Notes: a model not told the origin generated them from the sequence alone. Positions 55,389-63,091 are shown, counted from the first letter of the stretch. The stretch: 64,000 nt of DNA from Fodinicola acaciae (GCF_010993745.1 NZ_WOTN01000004.1:992001-1056000); one strand, 5' to 3'. A program made the numbers and translations.

Positions 55389-55706
55389 ATGTCCGACTAC
55401 TCCATCGACCACGACGGTGACGGTCACGTCGACGGATATCACCACGACTTCGCCGGCGGTGGCAGCGAAGACGTGGTCGACACCAACAGCGACGGTCAGT
55501 ACGACACGGTCTACGTCGACAGTGGCGGCGACGGCTACGTCGACCGGGTCTACACCGACTCCGACGGTGACGGCGTGCTCGACCACCGTTACGACGACAC
55601 CAACGAAGACGGCGTCGTGGACCGCACCTCGGTCGACTCCAACGAGGACGGCCAGATCGACTTCAGCTATCGCGGCGGCAGCGCGCCGGAATACGGCACC
55701 AACTGA
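55389..55706 (+). CDS. Asp/Gly-repeat (EF-hand-loop-like) protein 2
   Basis: 105 aa starting MSDYSIDHDGDGHVDGY, parallel to MTDYDLNHDGVTD of protein 1. Successive D-x-D-x-D-G loops (DTNSDGQYD, DSGGDGYVD, DSDGDGVLD, DTNEDGVVD, DSNEDGQID) about 12 residues apart. Cytosolic by lack of signal. A strong terminator follows. The two genes look like a duplication including the upstream control region. Confidence 0.78.
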   Translation: MSDYSIDHDGDGHVDGYHHDFAGGGSEDVVDTNSDGQYDTVYVDSGGDGYVDRVYTDSDGDGVLDHRYDDTNEDGVVDRTSVDSNEDGQIDFSYRGGSAPEYGTN

Positions 55707-55717
55707 TCGACCGAAGA

Positions 55718-55750
55718 CGGCCGGCTTTCCTGGAGAAGGCCGGCCGTTTT
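55718..55750 (+). terminator. rho-independent terminator
   Basis: CGGCCGGC (55718-55725) and GCCGGCCG (55739-55746), with a 13-nt loop, followed by TTTT. Sits between the convergent repeat gene and the VWA gene. Confidence 0.8.
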
Positions 55751-56905
55751 CTATTGGCTGCGCAGCTGATAGCGCTCGGCCCAGCCAGTCAGGTCGCCGC
55801 GGGACAACGCCTCGGCGAGCAACTCCGGAAAGGCGTCCGGCGTGCAGGCAAAAGCCGGCACGCCGAGCGTCGCCAGGGCCGCCGCGTTTTCCCGGTCGTA
55901 TGACGGCGCACCGGAATCGGACAGCGCCAGCAAGACGACGACCTGCACACCGGACGCCGTCATCGCGCGGATCCGGCGCAGCATCTCGGCGCGTACGCCG
56001 CCTTCGTACAGGTCGGAAATGAGCACGAAAAGCGTCTCGGTCGGCCGCGAGATGAGCGTCTGCGCGTACGCGATCGCCCGGTTGATGTCGGTGCCACCGC
56101 CGAGCTGCGTGCCGAAAAGTACTTCGACCGGATCGTGCAGCCGGCCGGTCAGGTCGACGACGTTGGTGTCGAAGGCGATGACCGACGTACGCAGCGCCGC
56201 GATGCTGGCCAGCACCGCGCCGAAAACTCCCGCGTAGACCACCGACTCGGCCATCGAGCCGGATTCGTCGATCGCCACGATCACGTCACGCTGGACGGCT
56301 TTCTGCCGCCGGCCGAAGCCGACCAGCCGCTCCGGGATGACCGTCCGCTGCGCCGGCTGATAATGCTTGAGGTTCGCCTGGATCGTGCGGCTCCAGTCGA
56401 CGTCCGGCAGCTTCGGCCGGTGCGTACGCGAGGCCCGGTTGAGCGCTCCGGCGACCGCCGACCTGGTCGCCTGCGCGATCCGCTTCTCGACCTCGGCCAC
56501 GACCGTCGCGACGACCTGCCGTGCGGTCGCCTTGGCCGTCTCCGGCATCGCCTTGTGCAGCGACAGCAGCGTGCCGACCAGGTGTACGTCCGGCTGCACG
56601 GACGCCAGCATCTCCGGCTCGAGCAGCAACTGCGCCAGGTTCAGCCGCTCGATGGCGTCGGCCTGCATGACCTGCACGACGCTGGACGGGAAGTACGTGC
56701 GGATGTCGGCGAGCCAGCGCGCCACCTTCGGCGCCGAGTCGCCCAGCCCGGCCGAGCGTGAGCCACCGCGCTCGGACGGCTCGTACAAAGCGTTCAGGGC
56801 GCCGTCGATCGCCTCGTCGTCACCGGAGACCGCGCCGAGCGCGGCACTTCCGGGATCGCCGAGCAGCAGTCGCCAGCGGCGCAGCCGCTCCCGCTCGTCA
56901 GCCAT
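55751..56905 (-). CDS. VWA-domain protein (CoxE/MoxR-partner type)
   Basis: 384 aa. Helical N-terminal 200 residues; C-terminal VWA domain with MIDAS motif DESGSM (VIVAIDESGSMAES), the second-site Thr in GGTDINRAIA and Asp in LISDLYEGG. Partner of MoxR ATPases: the VWA binds metal and substrate while the ATPase remodels it. Start overlaps the DUF5682-like gene by 8 nt. Last gene of the five-gene operon. Confidence 0.88.
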   Translation of the reverse strand: MADERERLRRWRLLLGDPGSAALGAVSGDDEAIDGALNALYEPSERGGSRSAGLGDSAPKVARWLADIRTYFPSSVVQVMQADAIERLNLAQLLLEPEMLASVQPDVHLVGTLLSLHKAMPETAKATARQVVATVVAEVEKRIAQATRSAVAGALNRASRTHRPKLPDVDWSRTIQANLKHYQPAQRTVIPERLVGFGRRQKAVQRDVIVAIDESGSMAESVVYAGVFGAVLASIAALRTSVIAFDTNVVDLTGRLHDPVEVLFGTQLGGGTDINRAIAYAQTLISRPTETLFVLISDLYEGGVRAEMLRRIRAMTASGVQVVVLLALSDSGAPSYDRENAAALATLGVPAFACTPDAFPELLAEALSRGDLTGWAERYQLRSQ

Positions 56906-59105
56906 CCGGCGGCACCCCTATCAGCAGCGCGACGGTGGCGACCGCGCCGGCGGCCCGGTCCGCGTCGATGTCGTCGGCGGCGCCGATCCTCACCCCGGTC
57001 GCGGTCTGCTTGAGTTTGTCGGCCAGGTTGCGCCGCTCGCCGCCCGGCAGCGCGCCAAACGTACGCCGCAGCAACGGCAGCACCGACACGAAATCCTCAC
57101 TGTCCAATGTGGACACCCAGTCGTCCAGGATGCGCAGCAGCTCCGGATCGTTGAGCAGCAACAGGCCGCCACCGGCCAGGAACCCCTGGATCCAGGCGGC
57201 TTTCGCGTTGGCGCCGGCGCCGACCGACAGCGCGGCCGACAGCCTTTTCGCCGCCTCCTCGGCCTCCAGCCGGCCGCTGTCCAGCAGCAGCCGTACGAGC
57301 CGGCCGACCAGCAGGCCGTGCACGTCGCGGCGGTCGATCAGGCCGGCCAAGGTGTCCAGCCAGCGATCGCGTACGGACTCGTCGTCACGCAACGCGACCG
57401 CGGCGTGCACCTCCTCGACGCTGCGGCTCATCTGCGCCGCGCCGGCGTCGTCGAGCGACCCGATGCCAGCCGGCAGACCAGCGCAAACGCGCACCAGGAT
57501 GGCGTCGGTGACGGCGCCGAGCGCGCCGGTGTCGGTGCCGCGCACGTCCCCATAGCGCAGCGACCGCGCGAGCGCCGGCAGGGCGGCCATCAGGTGCGCG
57601 ATGTCCAGGTCGACGGCGGCCTTCGCGTCCAACGCCGCGAGCACGGCGGCCAGCGCCTCCGGCAGGTCGGAGAGCAGCGTCCGCTCGACCGTGTCGGTCA
57701 CGCCGGCCAGCGTGTCGGCCGTCTCGGCGTCCTCGACCAGCCGGTTCGCGGCCGCTGCGGCCACGGTCGTGCCCCACCGCGCCGCGTCGATCACCGCGAC
57801 CGACAGCTCCGGACGCCAGGCGAGCGTCCACGACTCGGCGAACGTACCGGTGTGGCGGACCTGCGAGTCGGCCATCTCGGCCCAGTCGATGCCGATCGCC
57901 AGCAGCCGGTGCAGCAGCCGCGACTTGTCCCGGTCGTTGGGTTTGCGCAGGTCGAGGGTGATGGTCTTCTCGTTGGCGGAGATCTGCAGCCGCAGCCGGC
58001 GAGCCTGCGCGCGCAGGTCGGCCTCCAGCGGCACGGTCGGCGCGGCCGGTGGCACGCGGCCGAGCTGCTCGCCGATCACCAGTTTGCGGGTGACGAGATC
58101 CACCAGCATGTCGTCGCCTTCGCAGAGCACCGAGCGGGTCGCCTCGGTCAGCTCGGCCAGGCCGGCCAGCGATCGTCCGCGCAATGCCGCCAACGTCTCG
58201 GCCAGCCGCGCCGCCTCGATGACGTGCGCCGAGGACACCGGCAGGTCCTGCTCGCGCAGCGTGGCCGCGACCGCGGTCAGCCAGCGTACGACCGGCCGGT
58301 CGGTCGAGGTGAACAGGTGGTGATACCAGCCGGGCGAGATGATGCCGGCGCCATAGCCGGAAGCGGCGGCGATCCGCGTGTGCGTCCACGGCACCCAGGT
58401 CAGCTGCGCCTTTTTCTTCGCCAGGCCGGTGAGCAGCTGGCGATCGGCTGTGGCGGAAGGAAAAGGCGGCAGCAATGCCGGAGAATGCCACGCGCCGCAC
58501 ACCACCGCGATCGGGTCTTTGCCTTCCTTCACGGCTTTCCGGATGGTCGTACGCATGTGTGCTTCACGTTTGTCTTCCCAGGCCTTCTCGCCGGCGGAGA
58601 CTTCCGGAGCCGCCTGGCGCAGCTCGGTCATCGCCTCGATCACCGCCGGAAACGGGCTCACGCCGGAGTCCGCGCGGGTTTCGATGACCGCGTCCCACCA
58701 ACGCTCCGGATCGTCGTAACCGGCCGCAGCGGCCAGCATGCCGAGTGGATCGGCGGTCGCCTCGCCGTCCTGGTCGTCGTCCTTGTGCGCGAGGTTGGCG
58801 CTGGCCGGCAGATCGCAGAACCGTACGGGCACGCCTGCGCGCAAGGCCCACTGGATCGCCTGCCATTCCGGCGAAAACGTGCTGAACGGCCAGAACGAGG
58901 CCACCCTCGGCCGGTCCGGCAGATACGCCAGCAGCGCCACCGGCGGCACCATGTCCGGATCGCCGGCCAGCTCGACCAGCGCGTCGGCCTCCGGCGGTCC
59001 TTCGATCAGCACGATCTGCGGCCGCAGGCGATCCAGCTCCGTCACCACGGCTCGGGCCGAGCCGGGGCCGTGATGGCGAATCGGAAGGATGCTGACGACA
59101 CTCAT
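56898..59105 (-). CDS. DUF5682-like protein
   Basis: 735 aa. N-terminal region ILPIRHHGPGSARAVVTELD, followed by PQIVLIEGPPEADALVEL and FWPFSTFSPEWQAIQWALRA, then CGAWHSPAL near residue 225, recalling the GxxH/ChaN-TraB-TIKI-like hydrolase pattern (inference). The remaining 450 residues are helical repeats without known motif. Always read here as one frame with MoxR and VWA neighbours, so part of the same system. 8 bp after the MoxR stop. Confidence 0.72.
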   Translation of the reverse strand: MSVVSILPIRHHGPGSARAVVTELDRLRPQIVLIEGPPEADALVELAGDPDMVPPVALLAYLPDRPRVASFWPFSTFSPEWQAIQWALRAGVPVRFCDLPASANLAHKDDDQDGEATADPLGMLAAAAGYDDPERWWDAVIETRADSGVSPFPAVIEAMTELRQAAPEVSAGEKAWEDKREAHMRTTIRKAVKEGKDPIAVVCGAWHSPALLPPFPSATADRQLLTGLAKKKAQLTWVPWTHTRIAAASGYGAGIISPGWYHHLFTSTDRPVVRWLTAVAATLREQDLPVSSAHVIEAARLAETLAALRGRSLAGLAELTEATRSVLCEGDDMLVDLVTRKLVIGEQLGRVPPAAPTVPLEADLRAQARRLRLQISANEKTITLDLRKPNDRDKSRLLHRLLAIGIDWAEMADSQVRHTGTFAESWTLAWRPELSVAVIDAARWGTTVAAAAANRLVEDAETADTLAGVTDTVERTLLSDLPEALAAVLAALDAKAAVDLDIAHLMAALPALARSLRYGDVRGTDTGALGAVTDAILVRVCAGLPAGIGSLDDAGAAQMSRSVEEVHAAVALRDDESVRDRWLDTLAGLIDRRDVHGLLVGRLVRLLLDSGRLEAEEAAKRLSAALSVGAGANAKAAWIQGFLAGGGLLLLNDPELLRILDDWVSTLDSEDFVSVLPLLRRTFGALPGGERRNLADKLKQTATGVRIGAADDIDADRAAGAVATVALLIGVPPDG

Positions 59106-59113
59106 TCAGGCCG

Positions 59114-60196
59114 TCACCCGGTGACCTCGCGGCACGCTCGATAGAAATCGGCCCAGCCGTCGCGTTCGCGGACGACCGCCTCGAGATATTCCACCCAGGC
59201 AACGCGATCCGAGACCGGGTCGCGTACGACCGCGCCGAGAATGCCGGCCGCGATGTCGGCCGGCCGCAGCACGCCGTCGCCGAAATGCGCGGACAATGCC
59301 AATCCGTTGGTGAGCACCGAAATCGCCTCGGCGGTGGACAACGTGCCGGACGGCGACTTGAGTTTCGTACGCCCGTCTTCGGTGCCGCCCGAGCGCAGCT
59401 CGCGGAAAACCGTGACCACCCGCCGGATCTCGGCCACCGCGGCCGGGATTTCCGGCAGCTGCAGGGAACGTCCGAGCTGCTCGACCCGCCGTGCGACGAT
59501 CTCGACCTCTTCCTCGGCGGTCGCCGGCAACGGAAGCACGACCGTGTTGAAGCGCCGGCGCAGAGCGCTGGACAGCTCGTTGATGCCGCGGTCGCGGTCG
59601 TTGGCGGTCGCGATCACGTTGAAACCGCGCGCGGCCTGCACCTCGCTGCCGAGCTCCGGCACCGGCAGCGTCTTCTCCGACAGGATCGTGATCAGCGCGT
59701 CCTGCACGTCGCTCGGGATGCGGGTCAGCTCCTCCAGCCGGGCCAGCCGGCCTTCGCGCATCGCGGTCATCACCGGGGAGGGCACCATCGCACCCTCGGT
59801 CGGTCCTTCGGCGAGCAGCCGCGCGTAGTTCCAGCCATAGCGGATCGACTCCTCGGCCGTGCCGGAGGTGCCCTGCACGAGCAGCGTCGAGTCGCCGGAG
59901 ACGGCCGCGGCCAGGTGCTCGGAGACCCAGGTCTTGGCCGTGCCAGGCACTCCGAGCAGCAACAACGCGCGGTCGGTGACCAGGGTGGCGACGGCGACCT
60001 CGACCAGCCGGCGCGGACCGACGTACTTCGGCGTGATCACCGTGCCGTCGGTGAGCGTGTCGCCGAGCAGATACGTGACGACGGCCCACGGCGACAGCCG
60101 CCAGCGCGGCGGCCGGGGACGGTCGTCGGTCTTCTCCAGCGCCGCGAGCTCCGCCGCGTACTCCTGCTCGGCGTGCGGCCGCAGCAACTCGGTCAA
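59114..60196 (-). CDS. MoxR-type AAA+ ATPase
   Basis: About 360 aa from TTG 60196, which overlaps the previous stop (TTGA) and follows a GGAGGG site; a longer in-frame reading has no homology. Walker A GVPGTAKT (82-89). Sensor-1 region FNVIATANDRDRGINELSSA, arginine finger ALRRRFN. LEELTRIPSDVQDALITILS is the Walker B-adjacent helix of MoxR. It powers remodelling of a client through the VWA protein. Confidence 0.9.
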   Translation of the reverse strand: MTELLRPHAEQEYAAELAALEKTDDRPRPPRWRLSPWAVVTYLLGDTLTDGTVITPKYVGPRRLVEVAVATLVTDRALLLLGVPGTAKTWVSEHLAAAVSGDSTLLVQGTSGTAEESIRYGWNYARLLAEGPTEGAMVPSPVMTAMREGRLARLEELTRIPSDVQDALITILSEKTLPVPELGSEVQAARGFNVIATANDRDRGINELSSALRRRFNTVVLPLPATAEEEVEIVARRVEQLGRSLQLPEIPAAVAEIRRVVTVFRELRSGGTEDGRTKLKSPSGTLSTAEAISVLTNGLALSAHFGDGVLRPADIAAGILGAVVRDPVSDRVAWVEYLEAVVRERDGWADFYRACREVTG

Positions 60197-61683
60197 CGTA
60201 AACCCTCCAGCATGTGGCGTCGGATGTCGATCAAGGTCGCGGCGCGGCGCAACGCCGGCTCGGCGCGGCTCTGGCTGAACCGCTCGGCCAGGCCGCGGAG
60301 CAGCTCGGCGATCCGTACGCTCGACTCGTCGGCCACCGCGCGATAGCCGATCAGCTCGATCGTCGTGCGCGGCACGTACGACTTCGGATCCTCGGCCAAT
60401 GCTGCCAGCACCGCGGTCGACAGCTCCGGCGGCCACGGCCGCGCGCAGCTGCTGAGCAACGTCAGCGCACGCTGGCCGTCATGGCTGAGCGCGGTCGCGA
60501 CGGCGTTTGTGCGTACGTCCGGAGGCAGGAGCGCCAGCAGGGGTTGGCAGCGATACGGTCCGAGCGCCTTGACGAAGGCGGTGGCCCAGGTCAGCTCCTC
60601 CTCCAGCTGCGTGGCCTCCATCCAGCCGGTGCGCAGCTCGCCGCCAAAGGGCTGGTTGTCGGTCATCGCCAGCAGCTCGGCCGGCGGCAGCTGCTCCGAC
60701 CAGGTGCGCAGCGGCGTGGCCGCGATGACCTGCCGCAGCCAGAACGCGGAAAGGCCCTCGCCCTGTCGGCCGGGTTTCTCGGCGATGCCGTCCGCGCGCA
60801 TGCCGGCGTCATAGCCGGGTGTCGCGATCAGCATCCGGTGCCGCCCGAGCCGCCGCTTCTCGATCGTGACCAGCAGCCGCGCCCGCTCGGCCATCCGCTG
60901 GGAGCGGCCGGAGTCGGGCAGCCGGCGCAGCAGGTCCCAGGCGATCTCGCGCACCTCGCGGCGGCGGTCGGCGGCGGCGAGGTTGAGCGCGTCCTCGTCG
61001 GCGTCGGACAGGCCCTCGGCGAAGGCGGCCAGCAGGTCGCGGCGCTCCGGCAACGCCTCGGTGTCCCAGCCGGCCATCAGCGCCTCGCGGGCCGCGCCGG
61101 GGTCGTGCCGGCGCGCGGCCGCGAAGGCATCGCGCCGGGTCAGCGGGTCGGCGACGCGCCAGTCGTCCGGCAGCGGCGCGGCGATCTCGCCGTACGCGAG
61201 CAGCTTGCGCCACTCCGGCCGCTGCGCGGCCAGCCAGCGGCCCCGCTCGCCGACCACCTCCACCAGCGGCTTGGCCAGGTCGCCGTGCATCGCCGCACGG
61301 TCGAGCAGAGCCGGGATGCGGGCCTCCGGCGCGCGGAAGCCGGCAGCGGTCATCGCCGTCACCAGCTCGTCCAGCAGGATCGTGTCGCCGCCGGCGAGGA
61401 TGTCCGTCAACGCGGCGCTGACCAGCGCAGATGCCGTCGGCAGCCGGTCGTCCGGTGCCGGCCGCGGAGTCGCGACCGGCGACTGCAGCGGCTTGCCGGC
61501 GCGCCGATAGGCGGTCATGAACGCGGCCGCGTCGAGCAGCGTGCCAGGCGGGTCCGGCGGCTGGTGCAGGTCGGCCACCTCGCGCAGCGACCTGGCGACC
61601 GGCGGCGGCAGCTTGGCGATGTCGAGCCGGCGCCGCGCGGTGCCGACGGTGGCAGCGGCGACTACGTCGTCCCAGGTCGTCAC
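60193..61683 (-). CDS. DUF5691-like helical-repeat protein
   Basis: 496 aa from GTG 61683 (GTGA overlap). All-helical, HEAT-like: LVSAALTDILAGGDTILLDE, RREVREIAWDLLRRLPDSGR, RIAELLRGLAERFSQSRAEP. No catalytic motif recognised. Coupled to SWIM and MoxR genes; probably an adaptor or scaffold. Confidence 0.7.
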   Translation of the reverse strand: MTTWDDVVAAATVGTARRRLDIAKLPPPVARSLREVADLHQPPDPPGTLLDAAAFMTAYRRAGKPLQSPVATPRPAPDDRLPTASALVSAALTDILAGGDTILLDELVTAMTAAGFRAPEARIPALLDRAAMHGDLAKPLVEVVGERGRWLAAQRPEWRKLLAYGEIAAPLPDDWRVADPLTRRDAFAAARRHDPGAAREALMAGWDTEALPERRDLLAAFAEGLSDADEDALNLAAADRRREVREIAWDLLRRLPDSGRSQRMAERARLLVTIEKRRLGRHRMLIATPGYDAGMRADGIAEKPGRQGEGLSAFWLRQVIAATPLRTWSEQLPPAELLAMTDNQPFGGELRTGWMEATQLEEELTWATAFVKALGPYRCQPLLALLPPDVRTNAVATALSHDGQRALTLLSSCARPWPPELSTAVLAALAEDPKSYVPRTTIELIGYRAVADESSVRIAELLRGLAERFSQSRAEPALRRAATLIDIRRHMLEGLR

Positions 61684-62996
61684 AGGGACACCACCGCTGT
61701 CGGCGTCAAGGCGGAGACGACGCGTACGCCGGTGGCCGTCCACTCCGCGAGCACGTCCACCGGCCGCCCACCGGAGACCGCCAGCAACGGCCACGGATCG
61801 GCGGCGTACAGCGGCACGGTCGCGTCCGCGACCAGCAGCCACTCGTCGTCGTGGTGTACCGGCGTGACCTGGCTGAGCAGCACCGGCCACGACTCCAGCC
61901 ACGGGTTGGCGGCCAGCGCCTGCGACCAGCGCTTCGCCGCCTCCGCCATGGTCAGCTTGCCGTCGATCGCGGTGATCCGCTGCGGCTCGCCGCGGTTGTT
62001 GCCGGCCAGCGCGCGCAGGCCGTCGGAGGCCGGATAGAAGTGCAGGTCGGCGACCACTTCCTCGCCGGGCACGAACGAGTTGTCGAGCAGCTGGCCGTTG
62101 GCGGCGAAGGACAGGATGAGCGCCGGCCGTCCGGTCCGCGCGCCGCGCAGCCAGATGCGGCGCGTACGGATCCGGGTGTCCTCGCTGTCTCGCCAGCCGA
62201 GCACCTGCCAGGTGTCGGTGACCGGTGGGGTGGCCAGCACGTCCTCCCGGCTGACCGGATAGCCGATCTCGGCGCGTACGGCGGCGGCCAGCGGCGCCGG
62301 CAGCTCGCCGAGCCGGCGGTGTGCGCGTACGAGCAGGCGCAGCATGCCGTACTCGGCCAGCACCGCGTCGGTCCAGCCGGGACCGACCGTGCTCAGCCGG
62401 CGCAGCTTCGTCGCGATGCTCTGTGCCTGCGCGTCGACCATCCGCGCGGCCATCGCGTCCAACTGCGCGTATCCGCCGCGGGTCAGGCCGGCCAGGCCGG
62501 TGCGCACCTGGTCGCTCAGCCACTGGTCGAGCTCGTCCAGGCCGGCGCTGACCCTGGCCTCGCGCTGCTCCGCTCGCCGTGCCTGCGCGACCGGATCCGG
62601 CGTCCTCGGCGTCTTTTCCAGCGACTTTGCCGCGCGCTCCTCCAGCCACTCGGCGGCCCACGGCGGCACCGGCTTGTCCGTGACCTTGCCTTCCGACCAG
62701 TGCAGCAGCAGTGCGAGCGCGTGCTTGCAGGGAAGCTTGCGGCTCGGACACGTGCACTTGTATGCCGGGCCGGTCAGGTCGGTGACCACGCGGTAGGTCT
62801 TCAGGCCGCTGCCTTCGCAGATCCCCCAGACCGCGGTCACCGTCTGTGTGTCGGCGCTGCCGGTCTCCAGCCACGGGTTGCTCCTGGCGACCACGCGCGC
62901 CGCCCGCACCGACGCCTCATCCGACGCCAGCGCCAGCACGCGCTCCACCACCCAGGGCCGACCCACACTGGCGAGCGTATCGATGCCGGGTGACAT
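61680..62996 (-). CDS. SWIM zinc-finger protein
   Basis: 438 aa from ATG 62996. SWIM motif CTCPSRKLPCKHALALLLHW (CxCxnCxH) at about residue 80, a zinc finger that binds DNA or proteins. Long C-terminal region (ARTGRPALILSFAANGQLLD, EWLLVADATVPLYAADPWPL) is of unknown fold. First gene of the operon; upstream promoter region contains a hairpin. Confidence 0.85.
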   Translation of the reverse strand: MSPGIDTLASVGRPWVVERVLALASDEASVRAARVVARSNPWLETGSADTQTVTAVWGICEGSGLKTYRVVTDLTGPAYKCTCPSRKLPCKHALALLLHWSEGKVTDKPVPPWAAEWLEERAAKSLEKTPRTPDPVAQARRAEQREARVSAGLDELDQWLSDQVRTGLAGLTRGGYAQLDAMAARMVDAQAQSIATKLRRLSTVGPGWTDAVLAEYGMLRLLVRAHRRLGELPAPLAAAVRAEIGYPVSREDVLATPPVTDTWQVLGWRDSEDTRIRTRRIWLRGARTGRPALILSFAANGQLLDNSFVPGEEVVADLHFYPASDGLRALAGNNRGEPQRITAIDGKLTMAEAAKRWSQALAANPWLESWPVLLSQVTPVHHDDEWLLVADATVPLYAADPWPLLAVSGGRPVDVLAEWTATGVRVVSALTPTAVVSL

Positions 62997-63054: not shown

Positions 63055-63091
63055 GGGACCCTTACATGCGTCAGGCGTACGTAAGGGTCCC
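63055..63091. repeat. perfect inverted repeat, 11-bp arms
   Basis: GGGACCCTTAC (63055-63065) and GTAAGGGTCCC (63081-63091), with further partial pairing inside. Lies between the SWIM gene (leftward) and the leader peptide (rightward). Could be a repeated extragenic palindrome or an operator; no T-tract. Confidence 0.6.

Follow-up and report, generated by a model that had tools for sequence, protein, structure and literature searches.

The five genes at the end of the window (the whole 64,000-nt stretch of Fodinicola acaciae DNA analyzed here) make up, as judged from sequence comparison, a five-gene version of E. coli yehLMPQ and not a new gene combination. Unnamed actinobacterial genes are thereby tied to an operon that 97% of E. 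coli genomes retain, and a probable enzyme can be named in it, YehM/DUF5682, of the Tiki type and with likely catalytic residues. The YehL group of MoxR ATPases was already known in part, without an assigned function; new here are the identity with yehLMPQ, two branches of the system with exchangeable solenoids, two kinds of gene fusion, and evidence that the enzyme is of the Tiki type.

Layout of the operon

The operon (positions 55751-62996) consists of five minus-strand genes, the names of which were all confirmed by Pfam matches above the curated cut-offs. The genes and two flanking elements are as follows.

63055-63091, no strand assigned: perfect 11-bp inverted repeat GGGACCCTTAC-N15-GTAAGGGTCCC, approximately 58 nt upstream of the SWIM start
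62996-61680, minus strand: SWIM zinc-finger protein, YehQ-like in role (ATG start, 438 aa; Pfam SWIM, 7e-7)
61683-60193, minus strand: DUF5691 protein (GTG start, 496 aa; Pfam DUF5691, 6e-105)
60196-59114, minus strand: MoxR AAA+ ATPase of the YehL type (TTG start, 360 aa; Pfam AAA_5, 3e-38)
59105-56898, minus strand: DUF5682 protein, YehM homologue (ATG start, 735 aa; Pfam DUF5682, 1e-269)
56905-55751, minus strand: VWA protein, YehP homologue (ATG start, 384 aa; Pfam VWA_CoxE, 4e-48)
55701-55760, minus strand: GC-rich hairpin GGCCGGC..GCCGGCC at the operon end (folding energy, -25.8 kcal/mol)

The SWIM stop overlaps the DUF5691 GTG start by 4 nt, the DUF5691 stop overlaps the MoxR TTG start by another 4 nt, MoxR and DUF5682 are separated by an 8-nt gap, and the DUF5682 stop overlaps the VWA start by 8 nt. 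The original prediction of five coupled genes on one strand, with overlaps of 4 to 8 nt or an 8-nt gap, was confirmed in every particular, coordinates included. The closest alternatives to the MoxR start in the same frame are another TTG, nine bases inside the gene, and a GTG lying 240 bases upstream. The GC content by codon position in the operon genes, approximately 0.72/0.52/0.91, marks them as real actinobacterial genes. Since the flanking genes on both sides occupy the opposite strand, the unit is self-contained. Its expression as one unit is supported.

The 11-bp inverted repeat occurs as a single copy in the whole 8.86-Mb genome and was missing from the operon's upstream region in 69 relatives; it is possibly an operator. 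The hairpin at the other end is possibly a terminator; it has no clean T run and was not among the results of the terminator scan. Tail to tail with the operon, a short protein with repeated D-x-D-x-D-G calcium-binding-like motifs is encoded on the plus strand (window positions 55400-55706).

Relationship to E. coli yehLMPQ

In E. coli K-12, yehL (MoxR), yehM (DUF5682), yehP (VWA), and yehQ (SWIM) stand in one row, with a 10-nt gap between yehL and yehM and an 8-nt overlap of yehM and yehP. The window MoxR was 41% identical to YehL over 361 columns (4e-81), the DUF5682 protein 27% identical to YehM across nearly its full length (5e-45), and the VWA protein 36% identical to YehP (3e-78). BLAST found no significant similarity between YehQ and the window SWIM protein; Pfam assigned YehM to DUF5682 and YehQ to SWIM. 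All the MoxR proteins adjoining a DUF5682 gene, YehL included, showed 41-85% identity to the window MoxR over the full length; among the further MoxR-like proteins compared from the source genome, the best match was 5e-19, and RavA gave none.

The MoxR family is divided into seven or nine subfamilies, YehL among them (PMC3893208, PMC11432383), and because the operon is a yehLMPQ system, its MoxR subfamily is already in the literature under that name, without a function. The literature search found no functional study of yehLMPQ and no mention of DUF5682 or DUF5691. The gene combination is that of E. coli yehLMPQ with an extra solenoid gene, a relationship missed in the earlier description of the operon as a candidate uncharacterized AAA+-VWA system.

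Of 5426 complete E. coli genomes, 5284 (97%) carry yehM, nearly always as a single chromosomal copy. The yeh region is dispensable, since the reduced strain DGF-298 is missing yehI to yehR (PMC10652928). As the same core is found in yehLMPQ, its function can be tested in a laboratory strain, and a set of y-genes becomes a testable hypothesis, that of an ATPase-driven hydrolase; if this is true, bacterial AAA+ machines would be joined by Tiki-type enzymes.

Distribution, branches, and fusions

The actinobacterial comparison set comprised 80 loci from Rhodococcus, Nocardia, Actinomadura, Kribbella, Amycolatopsis, and other genera. The order SWIM-DUF5691-MoxR-DUF5682-VWA was found in 73 of them, 53 with separate genes, 17 with SWIM and DUF5691 fused into one open reading frame (a fusion also seen in Hymenobacter), and 3 complete although a contig begins nearby. 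Since the order is the same in 73 of 80 relatives and the other 7 loci are interrupted by contig ends, the five-gene set is not due to chance. The same gene order was found in Deinococcus, Hymenobacter, Rhizobium, Methylosinus, and Methylobacterium, so that the set extends to Deinococcota, Bacteroidota, and Alphaproteobacteria, and the co-occurrence in distant phyla that the original prediction had called for is indeed seen. Among 296 Actinomycetota genomes, DUF5682 was present in 21 and DUF5691 scored above the cut-off in 18, all of them within the 21 (hypergeometric P of ~5e-26, phylogeny not corrected for).

A second branch, with the order DUF4132-MoxR-DUF5682-VWA-SWIM, occurs in E. coli, Iodobacter, Proteus, and some actinobacteria. 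In Sinorhizobium, the DUF4132 gene is placed between those for DUF5682 and VWA, and its product has a WGR domain at its start; in Fusobacterium, the place of DUF5691 is taken by a 637-aa open reading frame in which no DUF5691 match was detected. DUF5682 and VWA form one open reading frame in Streptomyces-type genomes, and in two genomes (G161 and G023) the SWIM-DUF5691 pair is divergent from the adjoining MoxR-DUF5682-VWA genes. The last three are present together in nearly every subtype. From the branch orders, the fusions, and the divergent pairs, MoxR-DUF5682-VWA can be taken as the fixed core and SWIM plus the large helical protein as a mobile module.

Several further copies deserve mention. 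A group of remoter DUF5682 paralogues (L030, L031, L184, and L185), frames of 1000-1400 aa matched only over the first ~500 positions, has MoxR standing between DUF5682 and VWA and makes up a further subtype. Two plasmid copies are decaying: in Hymenobacter radiodurans (L114:8971-11263) DUF5682 is broken up into three annotated parts, and on Methylosinus pOB3b3 (L115:11226-12364) the VWA gene is present only in fragments. Directly upstream of SWIM in Fusobacterium, and on the same strand, sequence reading identified a restriction-endonuclease-like and a DNA-methylase-like gene (L117:2826-4386).

The N-terminal domain of DUF5682

The AlphaFold2 model of the DUF5682 protein (mean pLDDT of 84) has an alpha/beta domain at residues 1-245, followed by a mostly helical C-terminal part. 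In an alignment of 21 divergent homologues spanning all the branches, from actinobacteria to E. coli and Fusobacterium, the residues H11, P14, A17, E35, S78, E80, D98, W137, E142, R163, R180, E181, M184, G204, and H207 were invariant in all 21 rows, while R10 and H12 each varied in two. H11, E35, R180, G204, and H207 correspond in order and spacing to H41, E67, R228, G249, and H252 of TraB, and H11, E35, and H207 each come directly after a predicted strand of the model. The catalytic 2His/2Glu residues of the Tiki superfamily are located near the core strands (PMC6254334); candidates for the second catalytic Glu of this set in DUF5682 are E181 and D98.

When the DUF5682 N-termini were compared with 24,736 Pfam models, only ChaN and TraB, beyond DUF5682 itself, were matched by more than one member (three each), with a further single match to DUF5694. 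The best E values (0.014 for ChaN, 0.019 for TraB, and 0.008 for DUF5694) all fell short of the curated cut-offs, and the matches lay in the corresponding register, once at the His/Glu end and otherwise at the Arg/GxxH end. With hhalign, the DUF5682 profile gave P values of 8e-4 for TraB and 0.018 for the Ere (erythromycin) esterases, in each case on the R...H motif, whereas the six controls (two reversed and four unrelated profiles) gave 0.08-0.5; TraB and the erythromycin esterases, which both count as accepted superfamily members, reached only 0.3 with each other. Searches of Actinomycetota with the Pfam models TraB_PrgY_gumN and ChaN returned one genome each, and the TraB profile was therefore made from seven sequences of plasmids or E. 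coli. Whole-chain Foldseek, swamped by the helical C-terminal part, returned helical-repeat proteins only, none with an E value of <0.001, and a sequence search of the PDB gave no match for the full alignment and one irrelevant match for the N terminus.

Each of these lines is weak alone; together they make it highly likely that the DUF5682 N terminus belongs to the Tiki/TraB/ChaN superfamily. The original prediction of a ChaN/TraB/TIKI-like N terminus is thus strengthened by the invariant His, Glu, Arg, and GxxH residues and the weak ChaN and TraB matches, and the conserved polar residues that it expected there are in place (H11, E35, and H207 in 21 of 21 homologues).

The DUF5694 match came from the Proteus N terminus (L121:8983-9816), at its C-terminal GxxH end, and DUF5694 may itself belong to the group. 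The source genome also holds two genes of the erythromycin-esterase family (G000:C1:1383673-1384743 and G000:C2:144710-145702).

The other four proteins

The MoxR-VWA pair recognized by the original prediction was upheld by intact motifs in both proteins. In MoxR, the Walker A motif (G82-x-PGTAK88), the Walker B residues E155 and E156, the sensor-1 residue N199, and R214/R215 are conserved, and the MIDAS of the VWA protein (D213-x-S215-x-S217, T272, and D298) is conserved in at least 99% of 94 rows. The SWIM ligands C81-x-C83-x6-C90-x-H92 were kept in 99% of 82 rows and in 11 of 11 distant rows. DUF5691 was modeled by AlphaFold2 as nearly all helix (mean pLDDT of 92); Foldseek against the PDB returned importin, karyopherin, and HEAT (ARM/HEAT) proteins at E values of ~0.01 and low TM-scores, none at <0.001, and the protein is predicted, from its model, to be an alpha-solenoid, putatively of the ARM/HEAT type.

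Proposed mechanism and alternatives

The mechanism that we consider the most likely, if still tentatively, is that MoxR-VWA twists and in this way matures or gates a Tiki-type hydrolase, for which SWIM and the solenoid would serve as the target receptor. In NorQD, a finger of the VWA protein enters the MoxR-type ring, and ATP rotates the VWA protein stepwise against its own N-terminal part, by which the client is opened for metal insertion (PMC13036017). By analogy with NorD in NorQ, the VWA protein of the operon would sit in the YehL-type MoxR ring and be twisted against DUF5682 as ATP is hydrolyzed; this would either put a metal into the hydrolase or shift the hydrolase between a closed and an open state. 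Metal loading or gating by MoxR-VWA is proposed because the DUF5682=VWA fusion, with the enzyme on the N-terminal side of VWA, puts it at the predicted site of force, in the position of the N-terminal/linker part of NorD itself. A receptor delivering the target (probably a nucleoprotein or protein peptide) might be formed by the SWIM zinc finger together with the DUF5691 solenoid, and in the yeh-type clusters a DUF4132 protein, sometimes with WGR, could take the receptor role. The solenoid slot (DUF5691 versus DUF4132) does look like the target-recognition part; the proposed equivalence of the two is based on position. The genes, their motifs, synteny, and fusions and the homology to yehLMPQ are established and the Tiki-type domain is supported, whereas we infer a complex, the hydrolase activity of DUF5682, its coupling to ATP, and the receptor role of SWIM-DUF5691. 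It is rather unlikely that the whole is a MoxR-gated intracellular Tiki-fold hydrolase or protease with exchangeable SWIM-solenoid receptors (DUF5691 versus DUF4132/WGR), that is, a machine for ATP-dependent degradation or processing that is unrelated to ClpXP, Lon, FtsH, and the proteasome and present in nearly all E. coli.

It is somewhat unlikely that DUF5682 is an adaptor without catalysis and that MoxR-VWA is a maturation chaperone inserting a metal or cofactor into an unlinked enzyme, as NorQD, CoxDE, and CbbQO do. This role is the known one of MoxR-VWA pairs (PMC3893208, PMC13036017), the window VWA protein falls in a CoxE-like Pfam family, and molR, a DUF4132/WGR-related neighbor of E. 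coli yeh, has an old link to molybdate (PMC8533742). Known clients, however, usually adjoin, and a search around the 80 loci for a sixth conserved neighbor found none kept across genera, the clusters of neighboring genes reaching at most 17 of 80 loci, mostly within single genera (Nocardia, Actinomadura, and Kribbella), and many of them being shadow open reading frames. The invariance of the putative catalytic DUF5682 residues over phyla would also be unexpected in a dead adaptor.

The operon might otherwise act in DNA-damage or nucleoprotein quality control, SWIM with WGR/DUF4132 or DUF5691 binding damaged or stalled nucleoprotein and MoxR-VWA-DUF5682 dismantling or cleaving it, which we regard as improbable. 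SWIM and WGR domains are known in nucleic-acid-linked proteins, and a WGR-DUF4132 protein lies within the Sinorhizobium cluster. The Deinococcus radiodurans DUF4132 and WGR proteins DRA0166 and DR2173 are under DdrO/IrrE control and go up after mitomycin C (PMC8533742), which would count here if the two belong to a DUF5682 cluster. Against this reading, no DNA-repair gene is linked to the operon, and the window itself has no DUF4132. Less probable again is an anti-phage or other conflict system, in spirit near the MoxR-vWA ternary systems on record (Kaur et al. 2020, PMC7159879), even though some copies of the cluster lie near restriction-modification or toxin-antitoxin genes and DUF5682 is patchy in Actinomycetota. 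Against it stand the near-universal, chromosomal yehM of E. coli, a PADLOC search of the operon with nothing above background (best E value, 0.01), viral contigs with no confirmed match, the lack of the system in any genuine phage record, and the absence of a variable effector and of a VMAP, iSTAND, or FtsH component. The conflict reading thus has little support, and the earlier proposal that DUF5682 is the effector of a conflict response is not supported; a stress role for the operon is possible. The sole match among phage records, MT835988.1 ("Bacteriophage sp."; L122, 1-14207), which holds MoxR-DUF5682-VWA, turned out to be a fragment of a bacterial chromosome, as judged by its RarA-like, polysaccharide-deacetylase-like, and Hsp70-like genes.

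Comparison with known systems

The MoxR-vWA ternary conflict systems resemble the operon in having a MoxR-VWA core with extra subunits; unlike them, the operon has, by Pfam, none of the components named above and no beta-propeller third component, and SWIM, YehL, and TraB go unmentioned in their description (PMC7159879). The window MoxR scored marginally above the bpMoxR cut-off (28.9 versus 27 bits) but reached 131 bits with AAA_5, and YehL fell below that cut-off (18.4). NorQ-NorD, CbbQ-CbbO, and CoxD-CoxE share with the operon a MoxR ring with a VWA partner, and NorQ is the nearest bacterial solved structure to the window MoxR (6e-11). They differ in belonging to other MoxR subfamilies, in having a metalloenzyme client, usually linked, and in the lack of the DUF5682, SWIM, and solenoid genes present in the window operon.

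With the Tiki/TraB/ChaN/erythromycin-esterase superfamily, DUF5682 shares a His after strand 1, a Glu after strand 2, an Arg helix, and then GxxH following the last core strand. The His-to-Glu spacing is 24 in DUF5682, 26 in TraB, and 28 in the VvRRSP and Bcr135 pairs (PMC6254334); DUF5682 differs in its large helical C-terminal part and its genetic coupling to an ATPase. The closest likeness is to E. coli yehLMPQ, which has the same MoxR-DUF5682-VWA order, nearly equal junctions, and a SWIM protein in the cluster. There, the SWIM gene comes last and not first, DUF5691 is lacking, and a DUF4132 gene, yehI, lies upstream; since SWIM comes first in the window operon and DUF5691 replaces DUF4132, the operon is a variant of the yehLMPQ type.
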